Source: a virus. From it: 21,743 bases of DNA. A program made the position numbers and the translations under genes. Below are positions 6,289 to 21,743 of this stretch, one piece after another (the stretch's first letter is position 1; the number at the start of each line of letters is the position of its first letter). The stretch is taken from IMG/VR virus record IMGVR_UViG_3300042402_000456, positions 1-21,743 of that record, one strand, 5' to 3'. The notes below the pieces were generated by a model. It did no database searches and was not told the origin of the DNA. It was given only the letters and a program-made list of their open reading frames with translations.

Positions 6289-8718
6289 CTATTTAGGACT
6301 AAATGCTTCTAAATCGAATCCATCCAAAGAATCTTCAGTGCTTTCAAAATTTAATGGAGGTAGATTATTCTTTCTCTGATTAATAAGCTCAGATTGTCTT
6401 GTAGCTTGAAGATCAACTCTTTTATCCTTAGCTTCCTCTTTCTTTTCCTCACGTTTAAGTAAATTCTCAGTCTCAATACCTCTTAATTGCATATTATATT
6501 GGAACTCTTGCTCCATTAACTGAGCCTTAATTGCTGCTTCAGCTTGCATTTGTTGAACAGCAAAATTCATTTCAGCTTCTCTCAATTGTATCTTAGATTG
6601 AGCCTCAAGTTGAAGTAATTGAGATTTAGATTCAGCAGCAGCTTGTTGAGATTGAATGTTACTTTGCATCTGCATTTGGAATTGCATCTCTTGATCTTTT
6701 TGCTTTTGCTCTAATCTCTTTCTTCTTTTGAGTTTTAATAATTCATTAGCTAATTTGATATTATTAATCATTCTAATATCAATAGCATCCTCCAAGTCAA
6801 TTGTCTGTTGCTGTAAAGATACTTGAATGTTAGCCTCAAGCATTTGTCTCTGCTCTTCATCTGGTGCTAATTCTATAAATATACCGAAGTCATGTAGATA
6901 TAGATCTTTAATGTCATCTAGAATAGCAACATTATATTTCCCTATCTGCATTGCAAACTCATCCGCAAAATCAGAATATTCTAATATATCTGCAATTCTT
7001 ATTGATAAACATTCAGCTAATTTCTTAGTGATATTAAGACCTCCTTCTAAGATGTGTCTTGTAGCTGTATTTGAACTCAATGCTGCTAATTTCTGAACAC
7101 CAACCAATGCATCAGGATTTGGTGTTGTTCCATCTCTTACCTCATTAATACCAGTAACATCACGTATCATATTAAGATAGTGATTATAGTTACCAATTAA
7201 TGCAGACATTTTAGATTGACCATTATTTGAATTCAACTCTTGTATTGGAACTCTCGCATTATTAAAATCACCTTCTTGAGTATAACTTCTACCAATTACA
7301 CTACCAGTTTGGAAATATAATTTAAGTGCATCCTCTGGATTATAAGCAGCACCAGTTCCAAGATCTACCTCATTAATACCATCAGCATCAATGAATACAC
7401 CATCAGGAACTACTCTTGCCATTACTTGTTGTAATTTCAAATGAGTTAACTGTATCTGATCAGCAAAAGGAACCATACGTCTTACCAATGATTCAGTATT
7501 TCCTTTATACATTCTAGGTGCAAATACCACATAGTTAGGTAATGCTTTTTGTGTAGCTGATTTTGGTCTAACCATATTTTTCATCATGTCCCATTTCAAC
7601 ATGATATTAGAACCACCTACCAATATACCTTCATACCATACATCACGAACTGCCTCAACTTTCTCAAACATCATTCCTTCTTCTACAGGAGGATTGAATG
7701 TATCATTTTTTCTAATTACTCTCTCACCACCATTTTCAAGGATTTTCTTCTTCCATACAAATCTCTTGCTGGTTTTATAGTTGAAATAAAGCAATGTGAC
7801 AACTTCATTTAAAAATGCACTATCTTGATAGTTTCTTATAATTGGAAAATAATCATACCAAGCAGAAGAAGCATTACGTATTTCGTTTAATTGCTCGTCA
7901 GTTAGATTTGGATCTATTTTTAATAGCTCAGTATAATGAACTTGTTTAACTTCTCCAAAATAATAACAATCCGAAAAATCAGGCTTCTCTGTATAACTAT
8001 GAATAAAATTAGAAGGATCTACATAATCAACTTTCAATCCATCATTTACCAAAAATGTATGTCTTACAACAGCTTTACCTAAAACAGTCAAGTCATAGTC
8101 AACTTGTTTTTTAAGTTTTGGGTATTCATTCATTTTAAGAATTGTATCAATAGCAACTTCTTCAGCAATCTCAATTGACGGCTTATATTTTAATTGCATA
8201 TACAATGACAACTCTTCTTCAGTTTCAGGTAAATCGTCAGGATTTGTATTAAATGCATCAACACCAAATTGATCTTTTGTCATTTGCAAGAAATCCTTAG
8301 CAATCATATCTGCTTCAATCATGTCCTGAAAAATATTTTTCTTTTCAGCAGACATTACATCTTGTGATTCAGCTTTAATTGTAAAAACTCTATCATTCAT
8401 TCCATTGACAACTATGTCAACAAATTTTGGTATAATAGGAATAGGTGTCCAGTCTAAATTTAACATAGACATATCACCATTGACAGCTAATTCATCTTTA
8501 TATTTTTGAACAGGTTGCTCACCTCTTGCGTATAATCTTAAACGATGGAATTCACCCCATTGATCATAGAACCGACATGTATTTGCTTTACGTTTAAACC
8601 ACTCACCCTCAATTGATTTTGCAACTCTCAAGCCATATTCAATGGTAGCTTTTTCTTCATCACTAGCCATTTGATTTGGAAAGGGTGATTGATAAATTAC
8701 AACTGATAATTTCTCCAT
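6289..8718 (-). CDS. Portal protein (crAss-like type)
   Basis: At 809 aa this matches the long portal proteins of crAss-like phages. The N-terminal and central region (residues 1-590) contains WTPIPIIPKFVDIVVNGMND (about 91-110), KLKKQVDYDLTVLGKAVVRH, RMVPFADQIQLTHLKLQQVM and DVTGINEVRDGTTPNPDALV, which are typical portal-core segments. From about residue 660 to 770 runs a Gln/Glu-rich coiled coil (KDQEMQFQMQMQSNIQSQQA and onward), a hallmark of these portals, then a short acidic tail. A ring of 12 subunits would form the DNA entry channel at one capsid vertex, dock terminase during packaging and later hold the tail. Its ATG overlaps the terL stop codon by one base (TAATG), so translation of the two is probably coupled. 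Confidence 0.9.
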   Translation of the reverse strand: MEKLSVVIYQSPFPNQMASDEEKATIEYGLRVAKSIEGEWFKRKANTCRFYDQWGEFHRLRLYARGEQPVQKYKDELAVNGDMSMLNLDWTPIPIIPKFVDIVVNGMNDRVFTIKAESQDVMSAEKKNIFQDMIEADMIAKDFLQMTKDQFGVDAFNTNPDDLPETEEELSLYMQLKYKPSIEIAEEVAIDTILKMNEYPKLKKQVDYDLTVLGKAVVRHTFLVNDGLKVDYVDPSNFIHSYTEKPDFSDCYYFGEVKQVHYTELLKIDPNLTDEQLNEIRNASSAWYDYFPIIRNYQDSAFLNEVVTLLYFNYKTSKRFVWKKKILENGGERVIRKNDTFNPPVEEGMMFEKVEAVRDVWYEGILVGGSNIMLKWDMMKNMVRPKSATQKALPNYVVFAPRMYKGNTESLVRRMVPFADQIQLTHLKLQQVMARVVPDGVFIDADGINEVDLGTGAAYNPEDALKLYFQTGSVIGRSYTQEGDFNNARVPIQELNSNNGQSKMSALIGNYNHYLNMIRDVTGINEVRDGTTPNPDALVGVQKLAALSSNTATRHILEGGLNITKKLAECLSIRIADILEYSDFADEFAMQIGKYNVAILDDIKDLYLHDFGIFIELAPDEEQRQMLEANIQVSLQQQTIDLEDAIDIRMINNIKLANELLKLKRRKRLEQKQKDQEMQFQMQMQSNIQSQQAAAESKSQLLQLEAQSKIQLREAEMNFAVQQMQAEAAIKAQLMEQEFQYNMQLRGIETENLLKREEKKEEAKDKRVDLQATRQSELINQRKNNLPPLNFESTEDSLDGFDLEAFSPK

Positions 8719-10937
8719 TATTTTAGTATTTCGCTTCTAATTCCACGATTGTCGTATTTTACAAATTTAATACTTATTTTCGATTCTTTTTTCTCTGTTT
8801 CAAATAAATGCTTACGTGTAGCCATAATAGCTAAACCTGAACTAATAGAAGCATCATGTTTTGTTCTATTATTTGGATCAAATCTAGCCCAATCTTCTAA
8901 TGTTTTTGTAAAATACATAGATCCCATACAATCAGGATCTCTATAAGTGCCTTCTATGTCAAGACCTACATATTCCTCAATATACGTCTCAATAGCTGAT
9001 GCGTGAGCCTGTCTTACATCCTCAGATGAGTTAGGTATCCCACCTATCTCTATTTCAGTCTTAGAAAGCTTTGTTTTATGCTTATCAGGTCTATTCATAG
9101 AAAAAGCTCTATAACCTCTATTTTTAAAATGATATAACAACCTAGCCTTATTGTTCTCTGCTAATACTGGCATACCATAAAAAACGCATGCCATTAATAC
9201 GTCCTCAAAAAATACTTCAGCAGTTTGAGGTCTTGCTATATATTCTAAAAAAAATTCATTTGTTGGTGCTTCATCCATGTGAAATTTAGTCATTCCATGC
9301 AGCGCACCATTAGAACCACCTCCACCAACTACACCAGATATATCATAAGGGTCACATCCAAATGCACCTAAGTGTTCATTCCCAGGAAACTTCTTGCCTC
9401 CTCTATTAATTACATTATTTCGTAATTTACTATTAGGTATCCATGAAACTAAGAATCTTCCATTTTTATCAGGTGTCCAAATAACCTCGCTATCCTTTAC
9501 ACCATTCTTCCAATGAAAATATCCTCTAGTTAATACTTGATCTTTTATCAATGAATCATTGTAGTCAATCTGCTGATATATCTTTGTTAAATTAAACACA
9601 GACTGTTTAGACTCATCTCTAAATGCATGAGATTCACTTCTAGGAAACTGTCTGTAAAATTCATTTAATGCATCAGAATCTCCTTTTAATGCAGCTACCT
9701 CATTGTTCCACCAAGTAATTACGCCTTGCGTTATTATCTCACCATCAATACCCTTCACTGGCTTTTCTGGATCTTCAAATACAGGCCAACCAAACTCATC
9801 AATATAACCTTCAATATTCCACTCCATAGGTATAAACAATGAATACAAACCACTCTTAGTTTGACCATTAGCTGATCTATTTCTTGGATTACTATCGTTA
9901 TATAATTTCTTGAAATTTTCTCCTCCTTTGTTTAATGCATTTGATGTAGAACCCATCATACATTTACCAACAATCTTACTACCTAATCTCAAACATGTTT
10001 TTGTAACTCGCCAGTTGTTTAATATGTTTTCAGGCTTTTCCCATTTACCACTTTCATCATGAACAAGTAGAAGCAATTTTTCACCATCGTAACTGTTGTC
10101 AGCTGTATTCTTCCAGTCAATAGTAGTATCAAGTCCATCAATCTCATCTTGATTTTCTTGATCCATATTCTTTCTAGTAATCTTACTTGCAGGAACACGA
10201 AAGGCTAGTTCAGTTTTTGGATTATCCATACCATCCTGAATAGGCTTAAAAAAGAATGGATAGTTTCTTACAATAGGAACAACTTTATCTGTAAACATCT
10301 TCTTAGCATCACTACCAGTTTTTGACAAAATACCAATCCTAGAATCTCTAACTATTGTTCCAGTATTACATATCTCTGAACTAGACATAAACGAAAATCC
10401 AGATCGTCTGTTTTTCAAATAATCCATCCCAAAAGACCTATTGTCAGCTTTGCACGCTTCCCAATAAATATAGAATATCCTATTTGATTCCCTAAAGTCA
10501 GGCAGACCTATATCAATCTTTGTCCACTGCAAATACATGTAATGCGTTCCTGTTATATAGGTTGGCTTACCGTTATTTATAAACCAATGACCATTATCTC
10601 GCTTGTCAAATTCACCTTCAATCAAGTCAACGTATTTCGACTTAAAAGCATTATCTCGTCTATTCCAATCAAATATCGTCTTAATTTTCTGTAGCTCAGA
10701 TGGATAATCTTGTGCTACCCATTTGTTACCGTAATCGGTAACTTTTTCAGGTATTGAAGGCAGTGCAATTTTTACACTATTTATATCATATATCTGACCA
10801 ATAGTTCCATCTTTTGATATAACCACAACATCATAATCTTTATTGTAGCCATATTCCCAAGATTTGTAACGATTCTTAGTTATAATAACTCTATTGTCTA
10901 TATGACCATCTAATATAACGTAAAGATTATTTTCCAT
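8718..10937 (-). CDS. terL: Terminase large subunit (packaging ATPase and nuclease)
   Basis: A 739-aa packaging motor. The ATPase domain includes DYLKNRRSGFSFMSSSE (residues 172-188), an arginine-containing, non-canonical Walker A region as in crAss-like terminases. RIGILSKTGSDAKKMF (200-215) follows, then a Walker B with catalytic Glu in KLLLLVHDESGKW (D294, E295) and a coupling motif around MMGSTS (327-332). The C-terminal RNase H-like nuclease shows the expected acidic residues: GCDPYD (D529), LAENN (E594) and KHDAS (D695). It would pump DNA through the portal using ATP and cut the concatemer. It has its own -7 box at 10954-10961, follows the terS candidate, and its stop overlaps the portal start. 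Length is normal for the group. Confidence 0.95.
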   Translation of the reverse strand: MENNLYVILDGHIDNRVIITKNRYKSWEYGYNKDYDVVVISKDGTIGQIYDINSVKIALPSIPEKVTDYGNKWVAQDYPSELQKIKTIFDWNRRDNAFKSKYVDLIEGEFDKRDNGHWFINNGKPTYITGTHYMYLQWTKIDIGLPDFRESNRIFYIYWEACKADNRSFGMDYLKNRRSGFSFMSSSEICNTGTIVRDSRIGILSKTGSDAKKMFTDKVVPIVRNYPFFFKPIQDGMDNPKTELAFRVPASKITRKNMDQENQDEIDGLDTTIDWKNTADNSYDGEKLLLLVHDESGKWEKPENILNNWRVTKTCLRLGSKIVGKCMMGSTSNALNKGGENFKKLYNDSNPRNRSANGQTKSGLYSLFIPMEWNIEGYIDEFGWPVFEDPEKPVKGIDGEIITQGVITWWNNEVAALKGDSDALNEFYRQFPRSESHAFRDESKQSVFNLTKIYQQIDYNDSLIKDQVLTRGYFHWKNGVKDSEVIWTPDKNGRFLVSWIPNSKLRNNVINRGGKKFPGNEHLGAFGCDPYDISGVVGGGGSNGALHGMTKFHMDEAPTNEFFLEYIARPQTAEVFFEDVLMACVFYGMPVLAENNKARLLYHFKNRGYRAFSMNRPDKHKTKLSKTEIEIGGIPNSSEDVRQAHASAIETYIEEYVGLDIEGTYRDPDCMGSMYFTKTLEDWARFDPNNRTKHDASISSGLAIMATRKHLFETEKKESKISIKFVKYDNRGIRSEILK

Positions 10938-10968: not shown

Positions 10969-11235
10969 TTATTTCTTTTTTGCCCTACCTTCTGCGAATC
11001 CACCATTACCCACATTTATAGTAGGTAAATCTGAACTTTTATTCTCTTCCTCCTCAATCTTCTGCAACATATTCAATGCATCCTCAAATGCCAACCTTTT
11101 TGCAGATGCAGCATTCTTTAATTTGTCTGCTGATATATCATCTTCAGATCGAGTAATAATTGGTTCTTTTAATACCTTTATCAATTCGTCAATAGCAACT
11201 TTTGCTGCCTCTAATATCTCTATTTTTTTAGACAT
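10969..11235 (-). CDS. Terminase small subunit candidate (88 aa)
   Basis: A short helical, charged protein: residues 1-25 form a likely helix (KKIEILEAAKVAIDELIKVL), residues 35-67 a second (SADKLKNAASAKRLAFEDAL), then a flexible acidic linker and a basic end (FAEGRAKKK). Its place directly before terL, its size (similar to the 89-aa T7 small terminase) and its helix-only design suit a small terminase subunit that recognises phage DNA and forms a ring. I have seen close relatives at this place in uncultured aquatic phages, but I cannot point to a helix-turn-helix motif. It overlaps the upstream 186-aa gene by 16 bases, indicating one operon. Confidence 0.55.
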   Translation of the reverse strand: MSKKIEILEAAKVAIDELIKVLKEPIITRSEDDISADKLKNAASAKRLAFEDALNMLQKIEEEENKSSDLPTINVGNGGFAEGRAKKK

Positions 11236-11780
11236 ATATTCCGATTATACATTCTATAAAGAACTTCATTGTTTATTCTAAATTCATACTCGCTATCAGG
11301 AGTGAATGAAACAATATCACCTACTTCAACTTCTTCTAAGTCGCAATTCTTGAATACAACTTCACCCCACAATTCTTCAAATGATCCTATTGGATTAAAC
11401 ATTTTATCCTCAGATGGAACAGGCCTAATAAAAACAAATGGAGATGGTGCATGCCAAAAATCTTTATTCTTGGAATACAAATACACCTGCTCAGGTTCAA
11501 CAATAAATAAGTCGTCTTTTAAATGATGCCAACTGCTTTTTTGTCTACCCTTCATGTCATAGTAAAACTTAAAGACATTATGATGAACGACTACAATGTC
11601 ACCAGCAGTAATAGGTCCATCATAATAAATTGGAACAGATATTACCTCAGCAAATCTATTTGAGACTCTATGATCTTCTTGAGAGGCACTTACAATGAAC
11701 TCAGTATTACCGTAAGTTCTTATGTTATCATACCTCCTACCATCAACAGCTTTGATGATAAAACAGTATGGTGCTTTCAT
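11220..11780 (-). CDS. Tandem GroES-like (double co-chaperonin fold) protein, 186 aa
   Basis: Each half resembles GroES by eye. Half 1 (residues 1-105) has an opening strand (YCFIIKAV), a long loop with a hydrophobic patch (TEFIVSAS, 26-33), RFAEVISV (42-49), AGDIVVVHHNVF (59-70) and a closing LFIVEPEQVYLY (91-102). Half 2 has FVFIRPV (115-121), a loop, WGEVVF (138-143), VGDIVSFTPDSEYEF (153-167) and VLYRMYNRNICL (173-184). In E. coli GroES the corresponding parts are RGEVLAVG, VGDIVIFNDGYG and VLIMSESDILAIV. The order and spacing of these elements match, so I infer two GroES-like domains, the plan known from chloroplast Cpn20. It lies in the packaging operon (stop/start overlap TAATG with the upstream gene, 16-base overlap with the terS candidate). 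It could help GroEL fold a virion protein or be a structural beta-barrel that has lost that role. Confidence 0.6.
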   Translation of the reverse strand: MKAPYCFIIKAVDGRRYDNIRTYGNTEFIVSASQEDHRVSNRFAEVISVPIYYDGPITAGDIVVVHHNVFKFYYDMKGRQKSSWHHLKDDLFIVEPEQVYLYSKNKDFWHAPSPFVFIRPVPSEDKMFNPIGSFEELWGEVVFKNCDLEEVEVGDIVSFTPDSEYEFRINNEVLYRMYNRNICLKK

Positions 11781-16338: not shown

Positions 16339-18648
16339 TTATGCCTCTGTTGTTACACCAATTGCATCCCATCTATTATCTGTTGAATTGTAAATTAATC
16401 CAACATAAGTTGTCTTGCTTATTACTGTTGTTGTAGGTAAAGTAACTCCAATTGCTCTATATCCTCCAGTACCAGATGTCCAAGTGATTCCTCTTGCAGT
16501 TCCATCATCTTTAATTCTTATCATTAATGCTTGACCTTGAACAGGACTTCCTGTAGGAGCTGCTAATGTTAATGCTGCTGCTTGAGCTGTTATAACTACT
16601 ATATCATCATTTGCAGTTGGTGTAACTGTTGCAGCACTTGCCACTGATTGAACATTAGGAGCTGTTGTAGCTATTGTATAACTACCAGCAGGCTTATCAG
16701 GAAATTGTAATACAATATTTGTATTATTTACATTGTCATTCTTTATATAACTATCGTATGTATTTATATTAGTTCTTAACAATATACTGTCTGTATTCAA
16801 AGAAGTATATTGACCAGTTCCATTATGCTCAATAGTAATATTACTATCACTTATAATAGCTTGAGTATTTAATCCATTGACTGAAAGATTACTACCATCT
16901 GTAATACTAATTGATTGATCTGTAGTATTTCCCTGATCAGTTACCTGTTGTAATGTTGGAACCGCTGGTGCAGCCCAAGTTGCATCTCCTCTAAGAAACT
17001 TGGTTGTGTCATTTGGAGCTTTAGGAGCAAATCCATGTTTAGCGGTAGATACATCATTAGTTGTAATGTCTGATGTAGATAAATTACCATCTGTAACAGT
17101 AAATGTTCTATCAGCACTTAAATTAGCTGTAGTTCCATTAATAGTTAAATTTCGCGCATTTGTTACAGGTGTATATCCTAATGCTGTTGCAATAGTTTTA
17201 TTCTTCCATAACTGAGTAGAACTCTCATATATTAATGCATCGTTGTTTGCCAACGTGCCATTGTTAATATAAACATTATGAAGCTCATCAAGCTCCCATC
17301 CGTTCATTATCTTGATATATATCTTACCATTGTTAACATGAGCATACTCAACATACCCTATTATAACAATGTGAGCAGTTGCTCCTGTTGGTTTAATATT
17401 TGTAATTGCTCCAGGTATTGTAGATGATAAATATAACACATTACCATCCGCCCAAGTTTCTCCTTGCAAAGACCCAGTTGTGTTTATATCTTCAATCTGA
17501 CCAACCGTCATTATAAACCCTTCTTGATTTGTAGCAATCGTTTCAATAACAACACCCAAAGTATCAGCAGAGTTGTTGTCATTGTTAGCTTGAGCATAAG
17601 CTACAGCCAACCTACCACCCTGTGCTCCTGATACTCTTACAACAGGATATGCAGCTTTGGTAAGCGTAGCATTCGGAGTAACCTTATTAACCACTCTAGC
17701 AACCAAGTCAACGCCATTTTTAAGTATAACTGATCCACCCTTTAAAGTTGTCTCAGAACTACCCAACGTGTTATTCCATCGTGTTGTCCCTACCGCTGCT
17801 GTACCTGTTGGTGATACGTCTAATGTTAATTGACCTGCCTTTAACTCATATTCACCTAAATCAACATTTCCTGTCGCTCCTGTGTAAGGAACGTAACCAC
17901 CTGTTAAATCATCTGTTGTTGCTATTGTGTAATCACCTGAAACTTTATCAGGAAATTGTAATACAACACTATTGCCAGCAGATACATCTGTATTTTTTAG
18001 TTGACTCTCAACATCACCATTGTGCAATCCAAGTATTCCATCTTGTCCAATATATGCATAAGTTCCATTATTTACATTTTCTGTGCCAACTGCACCATTT
18101 CCTATCTCACTATAAGATGTAGATAAATCACCGACATAAATTGGATTATTGGTTACATTGCCATTATCGGTAACGGCTTGTAAGTCTAAAGATGTTAAAT
18201 CATCTGTTGTTGCTATTGTGTAATCACCTGAAACTTTATCAGGAAATTGTAATACAACACCTGTATCGGTTAGGTCGTCATTCTTTATATAACCATCAAA
18301 TGAATTTACATTGGTTCTTAATACTATGCTATCTGTATTTAAAGAAGTATATTGAGTAGTTCCTGTATTTTCAACAGTAATACTAGTCTCACTTATAACA
18401 GCTTGATAAGTTGAGTTAATAACCGAAAGATTACTACCATCTGTAATACTAATTGACTGATCTGTAGTATTTCCATTATCAGTAACAGTCTGTAAAGTTA
18501 TATTACTAGATACACCATCAATTATCTCTTGACCAGTTATCTTTTTACTAACATAAATAAGCCCGTTAAATTCACTAATCTCAAATAAATCAGTAGAATC
18601 TATATTAGCTCCTTTAGCTGTTAAGTCACTTATTTTTATATTTGCCAT
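16339..18648 (-). CDS. Large repeat-built tail fibre (769 aa)
   Basis: A long Ser/Thr/Asn/Asp-rich protein built from repeated beta modules. The segment LQTVTDNGNTTDQSISITDG (about 51-70) recurs at about 570. The block VVLQFPDKVSGDYTIATTDD appears twice nearly exactly (about residues 130-152 and 227-249) and a third time in weaker form near 650. The centre holds a GYVPYTGATGNVDLGEYELK-type segment and the C-terminal third has LTINGTTANLSADRTFTVTD followed by APNDTTKFLRGDATWAAP, common in flavobacterial phage fibres. The last 100 residues (QAAALTLAAPTGSPVQGQAL onward) form a known type of terminal module. It would form a trimeric fibre for host contact. The 42-aa gene starts the same stretch upstream, and the two-domain adhesin follows one base downstream. 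Confidence 0.83.
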   Translation of the reverse strand: MANIKISDLTAKGANIDSTDLFEISEFNGLIYVSKKITGQEIIDGVSSNITLQTVTDNGNTTDQSISITDGSNLSVINSTYQAVISETSITVENTGTTQYTSLNTDSIVLRTNVNSFDGYIKNDDLTDTGVVLQFPDKVSGDYTIATTDDLTSLDLQAVTDNGNVTNNPIYVGDLSTSYSEIGNGAVGTENVNNGTYAYIGQDGILGLHNGDVESQLKNTDVSAGNSVVLQFPDKVSGDYTIATTDDLTGGYVPYTGATGNVDLGEYELKAGQLTLDVSPTGTAAVGTTRWNNTLGSSETTLKGGSVILKNGVDLVARVVNKVTPNATLTKAAYPVVRVSGAQGGRLAVAYAQANNDNNSADTLGVVIETIATNQEGFIMTVGQIEDINTTGSLQGETWADGNVLYLSSTIPGAITNIKPTGATAHIVIIGYVEYAHVNNGKIYIKIMNGWELDELHNVYINNGTLANNDALIYESSTQLWKNKTIATALGYTPVTNARNLTINGTTANLSADRTFTVTDGNLSTSDITTNDVSTAKHGFAPKAPNDTTKFLRGDATWAAPAVPTLQQVTDQGNTTDQSISITDGSNLSVNGLNTQAIISDSNITIEHNGTGQYTSLNTDSILLRTNINTYDSYIKNDNVNNTNIVLQFPDKPAGSYTIATTAPNVQSVASAATVTPTANDDIVVITAQAAALTLAAPTGSPVQGQALMIRIKDDGTARGITWTSGTGGYRAIGVTLPTTTVISKTTYVGLIYNSTDNRWDAIGVTTEA
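17902..18260. repeat. Exact 68-bp direct repeat inside the fibre gene
   Basis: Bases 17902-17969 and 18193-18260 are identical over 68 bp, 291 bp apart and in frame. They encode the LQFPDKVSGDYTIATTDDLT block. Identity at the DNA level, including third codon positions, points to recent duplication or gene conversion. Recombination between the copies would remove exactly 97 residues without breaking the frame. Confidence 0.88.
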
Positions 18649-20413: not shown

Positions 20414-20932
20414 ATGATTCCTAAAGTTAAAAAGAAAGTTACGCATAGACGTGATAATAATAAAATTTATGGTCGAAAACAAGGAGAATACGACTTCTTA
20501 AAAAATTGGGCCATCATTAGAAAATGGGCTATCATCACATACGGACTTAAATCAACAGCCGATTTAGAAATGCTACTCTTCTTATACTCAGAAAAATTGT
20601 TTACAAGAACTCAATTTACAGAATACTCAAACTTCTTAACATGGGATAGAGACCGATTCAATAGACTACTAAGAGAAGATTGGATATATATTTGGCGACA
20701 TCGAAATCACCAAGAGACACACTTGTATGAAGTGTCATACAAAGGTAAAAAGATGATAAATACCATCTATAAAAAATTGCTTGGACTAGAGCCTATTCCT
20801 GAGTCTACAAGGCGTAATAAAATATTCCTAAAGACAGCACCCTTCTCTCACAAGACTCTAGCCATAGCAATTAAAAATCATAACAAACAACTTAAAGAAC
20901 ACAAACAACGTCCTTCTCCTGGATTACAGTAA
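20414..20932 (+). CDS. Winged-helix DNA-binding protein candidate (172 aa), only plus-strand gene
   Basis: Basic, helical protein. After a Lys/Arg-rich start (MIPKVKKKVTHRRDNNKIYG) comes FLKNWAIIRKWAIITYGLKS, then DLEMLLFLYSEKLFTRTQF (50-68), RDRFNRLLREDWIYIWR (79-95, likely recognition helix running into a beta strand) and HLYEVSYKGKKMINTIYKKL (103-122). Helix, helix, recognition helix, wing and long C-terminal helix is the MarR-like winged-helix plan, and I recall this family in uncultured aquatic Bacteroidetes phages. The tail (residues 125-172) is basic. It opposes all other genes in the window and shares a 26-base gap with the tail operon, and its 3' end overlaps groES by 41 bases. Control of late transcription, including its own promoter, is a reasonable inference. 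Confidence 0.72.
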   Translation: MIPKVKKKVTHRRDNNKIYGRKQGEYDFLKNWAIIRKWAIITYGLKSTADLEMLLFLYSEKLFTRTQFTEYSNFLTWDRDRFNRLLREDWIYIWRHRNHQETHLYEVSYKGKKMINTIYKKLLGLEPIPESTRRNKIFLKTAPFSHKTLAIAIKNHNKQLKEHKQRPSPGLQ

Positions 20933-21149
20933 GACGTTTGTCATCTATCAACACATCATGACCTGCTGCCTTGTCAAAGTATATCTCGTTAGACTCTGAT
21001 ATTCCAGAGACTAACGAACCTACCGACACAACAACAGCCTTATTATATCTTAACTCACGCTTATCTTCCATTGTCATTATTAGACCTGACTTATTCTCTG
21101 ACTTGTCAGCTATCCGCTCGACAATCAGAAACTTATTTAGAACCTTCAT
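20892..21149 (-). CDS. groES: Phage co-chaperonin GroES, short form (85 aa)
   Basis: GroES-type beta-barrel subunit: opening strand VLNKFLIVERI (3-13), mobile loop ADKSENKSGLIMTMEDKRE (14-32) with the hydrophobic triplet L23-I24-M25 in place of the usual I-V-L, strand AVVVSVG (38-44), then DVLIDDKRLTVIQEKDVVCVL to the end, which matches the GroES closing pattern (V-I-x-x-x-x-x-V-x-x-E-x-D-I-x-A-V). It is 12 residues shorter than the 97-aa E. coli protein, mainly because the roof hairpin is reduced. Seven subunits would cap the phage or host GroEL. The ATG lies 17 bases inside the 3' end of groEL, so it is translated after groEL. Its 3' end overlaps the opposing gene at 20414-20932. Confidence 0.85.
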   Translation of the reverse strand: MKVLNKFLIVERIADKSENKSGLIMTMEDKRELRYNKAVVVSVGSLVSGISESNEIYFDKAAGHDVLIDDKRLTVIQEKDVVCVL

Positions 21150-21743
21150 AGTCTCTTACATTTGTGATTATTGCATTCGTACTCATGATTGTTGTAGCAA
21201 CCGACACAGCATTCAATAGTGCGTTCTTCGTGACTTTTGTCGGATCAATAATCCCCAACTTCATCATCTCACCATACTGCTCACCCTTCACGTCATAACC
21301 CATACCGTCTTTACGGTGTGATAATATCTCGTCACTATCCTTGCCAGCGTTCTCAACGATCTGCCTAAATGGTGCTCTTAATGCATGTATCATTATGTCA
21401 TTCGCTACACCGTCAGGTATTAGATCATAACTCGCATCCAATAACGCTACACCACCACCAGGTAATATACCATCCTCCAACGCAGCCTGAACAGCACACA
21501 CAGCATCGTCAATCCTATCCTTCTTCTCCTTCTGCTCAATGTCACTCAACGCTCCTACATATATAACACCAACACCACCAGACAAATTAGCAATTCGCTC
21601 ATTTAAAAAATTCTTCTCATCATCATTTGTAGCTGCATCACGCATGTCCTTGAGCTCATTAACTCTATTAACAATCTCTTGCTCCCTCGACTCACTATGC
21701 ATGAACACCGTCATGTTATTACTAACAATAACCTTTGTAGCCC
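21133..21743 (-). CDS. groEL: Phage chaperonin GroEL, C-terminal part (5' end outside window)
   Basis: The frame is open to the window edge (upstream residues LTKVIVSNN match E. coli AKRVVINKD), so the apparent ATG at 21714 is internal and only about the last 200 residues are seen. Alignment by eye to E. coli GroEL is continuous. ERIANLSGGVGVIYVGALSD covers the hinge, KDRIDDAVCAVQAALEDGIL keeps the catalytic Asp (D398), PGGGVALL the equatorial glycines and GIIDPTKVTKNALL the nucleotide-binding Asp (D495). The C-terminus stops at DYEGSK without the Gly-Gly-Met tail. Odd points: at positions equivalent to 461-464 (EPSV) it has DSDE, and the nucleotide-contact NAA (479-481) is DVK. It would fold phage virion proteins together with the GroES encoded just downstream. 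Confidence 0.95.
   Translation of the reverse strand, partial: ATKVIVSNNMTVFMHSESREQEIVNRVNELKDMRDAATNDDEKNFLNERIANLSGGVGVIYVGALSDIEQKEKKDRIDDAVCAVQAALEDGILPGGGVALLDASYDLIPDGVANDIMIHALRAPFRQIVENAGKDSDEILSHRKDGMGYDVKGEQYGEMMKLGIIDPTKVTKNALLNAVSVATTIMSTNAIITNVRDYEGSK

Follow-up and report, generated by a model that had tools for sequence, protein, structure and literature searches.

The chaperonin genes of this phage probably make up a vertically inherited group I module in which groEL precedes groES. In the reading that we regard as likely, both genes would be read from one mRNA, groES would be started at an ATG inside groEL, and the two products would work as a dedicated pair. Phage chaperonin loci are already known, and this module is a variant of them; its gene order and its overlap are genuine, of long standing and maintained. 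Three things appear to be new: evidence at the level of codons for a groES start within groEL, the loss of canonical ring contacts throughout the clade, and a tandem Cpn10-like gene linked to the pair. The window, by which we mean the whole stretch of DNA that was analysed, is an IMG/VR fragment of 21,743 bases, and the 5' end of groEL is absent because the right contig end cuts the gene. Its relevant features are as follows:

21133..21741, minus strand: groEL, C-terminal 202 codons plus stop (Pfam Cpn60_TCP1, 5e-23; PHROG 5725 GroEL, 1.8e-49)
20892..21149, minus strand: groES, 85 aa, with its ATG within groEL (Pfam Cpn10, 2.1e-10, above cut-off; PHROG 3188)
21133..21149, minus strand: groEL/groES overlap, 17 bases (identical in 76 of 146 distinct relatives)
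21150..21165, minus strand: putative groES translation start region in groEL codons (synonymous bias in the 17-nt class but not in the gap class)
20414..20932, plus strand: antisense gene, 172 aa (PHROG 17028, unknown function)
11220..11780, minus strand: second Cpn10-like protein, 186 aa (PHROG 13932 'co-chaperonin GroES', 2.3e-17)
8718..10937, minus strand: large terminase subunit, which marks phage kinship (PHROG 6681, 2e-175)

Read along the minus strand, groEL (21741-21133) comes before groES (21149-20892), and the groES ATG at 21149-21147 precedes the groEL stop codon TAA at 21135-21133. The 202-aa C-terminal part of GroEL belongs to the Cpn60 family (Pfam PF00118, 81.9 bits against a cut-off of 34.3) and the 85-aa groES product to the Cpn10 family (41 bits against 21.1). 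These coordinates, with the Pfam and PHROG matches, bear out the order and 17-base overlap described in an earlier note on this DNA. No promoter or terminator above chance was found at the groEL/groES junction, and no known RNA elements or tRNAs were found within the window. At its other end groES meets the antisense gene in a tail-to-tail overlap of 41 bases, an overlap of 1-99 nt that is kept in 129 of the 142 relatives having this gene; groES is thus overlapped at both ends, by groEL at the 5' end and by the antisense gene at the 3' end. The gene occupying the antisense position in MW202828 carries the annotation 'repressor'.

The window belongs to a large clade of podovirus-like phages of roughly 60-68 kb. 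Its large terminase subunit (TerL) shares 70% identity with the TerL of Podoviridae sp. ctfjg026 (MW202828, circular, 60.9 kb) and 44% with the TerL of Elemovirus (Flavobacterium phages), and many of the IMG/VR relatives are contigs of 58-68 kb. By analogy with the hosts of cultured kin, the host group is presumably Flavobacteriia. Two scans of viral contigs yielded 148 distinct contigs after removal of 12 repeats, and 146 of these reach both chaperonin genes and constitute the informative IMG/VR relatives; full-length groEL in relatives spans about 515-525 codons. Also in the window is a tail-like 769-aa protein (16339-18648, minus strand) in which modules of the form LQ.VTD.GNTTDQSISITDGSNLSV recur. 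One record labelled as an Acinetobacter phage, L085 (CAKLQH020000021), carries pckG, glpQ and acrB together with a standard groES-groEL operon, and resembles a bacterial chromosome.

The survey of gene order in related phages that the earlier note had proposed gave a uniform result, groEL preceding groES in all 146 informative relatives. The reverse order was found in 80 out of 80 nearest bacterial groEL loci, in keeping with the note's statement that bacterial operons almost always run groES then groEL. The canonical groESL arrangement, with groES upstream, occurs neither in the window nor in any informative relative; the phage locus shares with the bacterial operon two adjacent, co-directed group I subunits and differs in their order. 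GroEL is indeed carried by a minority of phages, as had been claimed, since 219 of 50,697 phage records match it. Elsewhere among phages groES comes first in immutovirus and DAC19, and Callevirus has groES, one gene, and then groEL. HMM searches found no adjacent groES in crAss-like and Vibrio phages, and by HMM the small groEL neighbours in phi14:2, Vibrio phages and Mx1 are not Cpn10. A second groES upstream of groEL, an arrangement raised in the earlier note, was not found in 24 large relatives, and each of 25 records gave a single Cpn10 match above the cut-off.

In a GroEL tree of 51 rows, with Elemovirus scored as groEL then groES, a single change of gene order suffices, and the branch that bears it has an SH-aLRT support of 99%; this tree, like our others, comes from a quick search and contains some long rows. 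Judged from sequence comparison, the reversed order is an old, clade-wide lineage trait that arose once, and not, as the earlier note had proposed, a rearrangement made in this phage. The flip itself may have taken place in a phage or, alternatively, in some donor that has not been sampled. Marine et al. 2017 (ISME J, doi 10.1038/ismej.2017.102), in their work on virioplankton group I chaperonins, reportedly linked subunit gene order to GroEL phylogeny. To our knowledge that study mentions neither a 17-nt overlap with codon constraint nor a tandem Cpn10-like protein. It is the source cited for phages with both chaperonin genes in a later paper (PMC7185714).

Could the pair have been taken over in recent times from the operon of a Bacteroidetes host and then re-ordered in this phage? 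The best solved-structure match to the phage GroEL is the reconstructed ancestral Fibrobacteres-Chlorobi-Bacteroidetes GroEL (a full-length relative aligned to solved GroELs at positions 4-511 of 519), and Flavobacteriia are the hosts of cultured kin, both of which would fit such a capture. However, the core GroELs of the phages fall into one deep group, with 85% support on an 81-row tree and 99% after very long rows were removed. Forcing them together with Bacteroidota lowered the log-likelihood by 49 and was rejected (AU p=6e-5), which rules out a recent host copy. Moreover, the nearest bacterial GroELs are just about 41% identical, and the groEL-groES order is common to the whole clade. A real recent capture looks different: the DAC19 GroEL nests inside Bacteroidales, and groES comes first in that phage. 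Deep branches are not resolved in the GroES tree, whose alignment offers too few columns; by the GroEL tree and AU test the phylogenetic check suggested in the earlier note thus sets the phage pair apart from any recent host operon, and we consider recent capture highly improbable.

Within this old gene order the spacing between the two genes has gone on changing. The 17-nt overlap, with the ATG at the same position, was found in 76 of the 146 relatives, some with a GroEL identity as low as about 54%, and since both recur in this way the overlap is not due to chance. A further 16 relatives have overlaps of 1-14 nt, and 54 have none, with gaps of up to 50 nt in 7 of these and longer gaps in 47. 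Spacing state changes at least 11 times on the phage tree. ORFs are inserted between groEL and groES in four distant relatives, and we take these from our own reading of the sequences to be homing endonucleases, HNH-like in L072 and L074 and GIY-YIG-like in L079 and L080. Given these insertions and the 54 relatives without overlap, a tight overlap is not essential. MW202828, the closest annotated relative, likewise has groEL followed by groES, yet by homology its groES starts 4 nt past the groEL stop, whereas the deposited start overlaps by 44 nt. Elemovirus (vB_FspP_elemo) resembles the window in carrying groEL then groES on one strand and a related terminase, but differs in an overlap of 1 nt instead of 17 and in a GroEL that sits on a long branch and is 39% identical to that of the relative L002. 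The 17-nt geometry also differs from that typical of termination-reinitiation, which favours 1- and 4-nt overlaps (PMC10666635).

An indication of how groES might be started comes from groEL codons that lie just upstream of its ATG. In the window this region reads ACA AAT GTA AGA GAC T, followed by ATG, with A at -14 to -12, AGAG at -7 to -4, and the Shine-Dalgarno (SD) motif absent. All 74 rows of the 17-nt class use AGA for the final conserved Arg of groEL, whose codon occupies -7 to -5 relative to the groES ATG. Overall, AGA accounts for 31% of the Arg codons in these groELs and for 0-65% of those at the other conserved Arg columns, and the gap class has it in 15 out of 45 cases at the corresponding column. 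Similarly, ACA encodes the groEL Thr at -16 to -14 in 71 of 74 rows of the 17-nt class (background 36%), the Ala that follows the conserved Arg, where present, is GCA in 27 of 27, and A occupies positions -14 to -12 in 92-97% of the contexts. The rows behind these counts are kin and not independent events, with the matched Arg columns and the gap class serving as controls. Because the codons sit upstream of the ATG, the coding of GroES protein does not explain the AGA, ACA and GCA choices. A Shine-Dalgarno-driven groES start was rejected, as none of 39 distinct 17-nt contexts contains an SD motif.

These patterns support nucleotide-level selection for groES initiation at the ATG inside groEL, with the constrained codons apparently building an A-rich, SD-free start region of the Bacteroidetes type. 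The A-rich context agrees with initiation in Flavobacterium johnsoniae, where A at -12 and -13 promotes initiation (PMC6847099), and Bacteroidetes carry out termination-reinitiation without reliance on SD (PMC6728339). We infer that groES translation may be coupled to that of groEL through the overlap. Under the proposed mechanism both chaperonin genes would be read from one mRNA, groES would be initiated at its internal ATG by the Bacteroidetes-type, SD-free route, and ribosomes finishing groEL would help that initiation and thereby fix the ratio of lid to ring.

A competing explanation is that the overlap reflects mere compaction, i.e. an inherited junction frozen by the damage that indels would do to two proteins, with the amount of GroES unaffected. 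Several observations are compatible with this: the length of the overlap is passed on within a single subclade and variable outside it, the locus is dense, with the antisense gene overlapping the other end of groES as well, and a conserved overlap can persist solely on the grounds that indels would break both genes. Yet the synonymous codons upstream of the ATG, which lie outside the dual-coding stretch, are held constant in the overlap class but vary freely among members of the gap class. Protein coding alone leaves this constancy unexplained, and we judge compaction to have a real though minor chance of being the right account.

The proteins themselves bear on whether phage GroEL and GroES act together. 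With residues numbered from the E. coli K-12 record, and 146 phage GroELs compared with 80 from bacteria, the ATPase residues D52, D87 and D398 were found to be kept in all phage GroELs covering them (the window fragment shows only D398). In the GroES-binding groove L234 is replaced by Glu in 132 of the 146 phage proteins, and V263 mostly by Asn or Ala. The R452-E461 ring-ring pair is present in 2 of 146 phage GroELs versus 75 of 80 from bacteria, and the S463-V464 contact in 0 of 146 versus 66 of 80. The phage proteins also stop soon past the last equatorial strand and lack the GGM tail, whereas nearly all bacterial GroELs examined have a glycine-methionine-rich tail or close variant. The loss of contact residues is a hint that the ring-ring interface of phage GroEL is probably weakened or lost.

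As for the partner, the AlphaFold model of the window groES has the Cpn10 fold, matching T. thermophilus Cpn10 with Z 10.2 and an rmsd of 2.4 over 80 residues. Nearly all relatives have a hydrophobic mobile loop with a G-[LI]-hydrophobic or GL[LI][LM]-type motif, predicted to bind GroEL. The roof spacer has 8 residues in phages, 12 in Bacteroidota and 17 in Pseudomonadota; the idea that the roof hairpin was lost only in phage is weakened by the already short roof of Bacteroidota GroES. T4 gp31 is alike in its phage GroES fold and reduced roof (our groES model matches gp31 in the GroEL complex with Z 8.4), but T4 has no GroEL of its own, and the short roof that the two share is not particular to phages.

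The changes in the groove and the loss of ring contacts suggest a dedicated GroEL-GroES pair, which would fold phage proteins and would possess a private lid-ring interface. Distances among GroELs and among GroESs are correlated (Mantel r 0.71, 0 of 2000 permutations). Here the matched pair of the earlier note holds insofar as both proteins diverge together, although co-divergence is expected of linked neighbours even when there is no special co-adaptation. Alternatively, phage GroES might mainly serve the host GroEL, as T4 gp31 does, with phage GroEL having another role or acting alone. The altered groove (L234E, V263N/A) could be taken this way. So could the GroELs of phages EL, OBP and AR9, which are single-ring or ring-splitting, resemble ours in being phage-encoded with altered ring-ring contacts, and function with no co-chaperonin (PMC9598537, PMC7185714). 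In the window clade, by contrast, groES stands beside groEL in every informative relative, the two co-diverge, and phage GroEL retains its ATPase and hinge residues, so that we regard service to the host GroEL as quite unlikely. The GroELs of EL, OBP and AR9 are distant from those of the window clade, the phage EL protein matching over just 64 residues.

The earlier note had passed over a tandem Cpn10-like gene inside the window. Its 186-aa product is encoded upstream of the terminase gene and has a PHROG 13932 homologue in 24 out of 25 large records, the window counted; the sole exception, L004 (record G002), may be an incomplete record. The gene lies near or directly before terL in Elemovirus (directly before), Maribacter phage Panino, phage phi40:1 and MW202828. 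An AlphaFold model of the protein (pLDDT 81) matches chain R of 7ekq over its full length (Z 10.9, rmsd 4.5, 159 residues), 7ekq being the ClpP complex of Chlamydomonas, which reportedly contains the co-chaperonins CPN11/20/23 (PMC8889267). By profile comparison with phage GroES, the C-terminal half matches with an E of 1.4e-5 (hhalign) and the N-terminal half weakly (E 0.08). The protein thus apparently consists of two Cpn10-like domains in tandem, and HHN.F and RYDN-type motifs are invariant in its first half. Annotations in some phages already call it a co-chaperonin, and from its profile matches and predicted fold we regard it as an overlooked candidate for a second co-chaperonin beside the terminase.

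Taken further, these features might add up to a complete, host-independent folding kit, comprising a GroEL with weakened contacts that is possibly single-ring, a dedicated small GroES, and a tandem Cpn20-like co-chaperonin that perhaps serves head assembly; this we put forward tentatively and on the whole doubt. If true, such a kit would have the groES start region lying in synonymous codons of groEL, and a tandem co-chaperonin that resembles chloroplast Cpn20 and is placed with the packaging genes. The reading that we favour, the inherited groEL-groES module, yields a testable rule for the lineage, namely that chaperonin order flipped once and held while spacing went on changing. Its overlap class would be a natural case of an SD-free, Bacteroidetes-type start maintained within another gene by synonymous codons, and bears on how ribosomes of this type find internal starts. 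Finally, the changes in GroEL predict that ring and lid form a private pair, possibly a single ring with a partner, unlike the co-chaperonin-free systems of EL, OBP and AR9.
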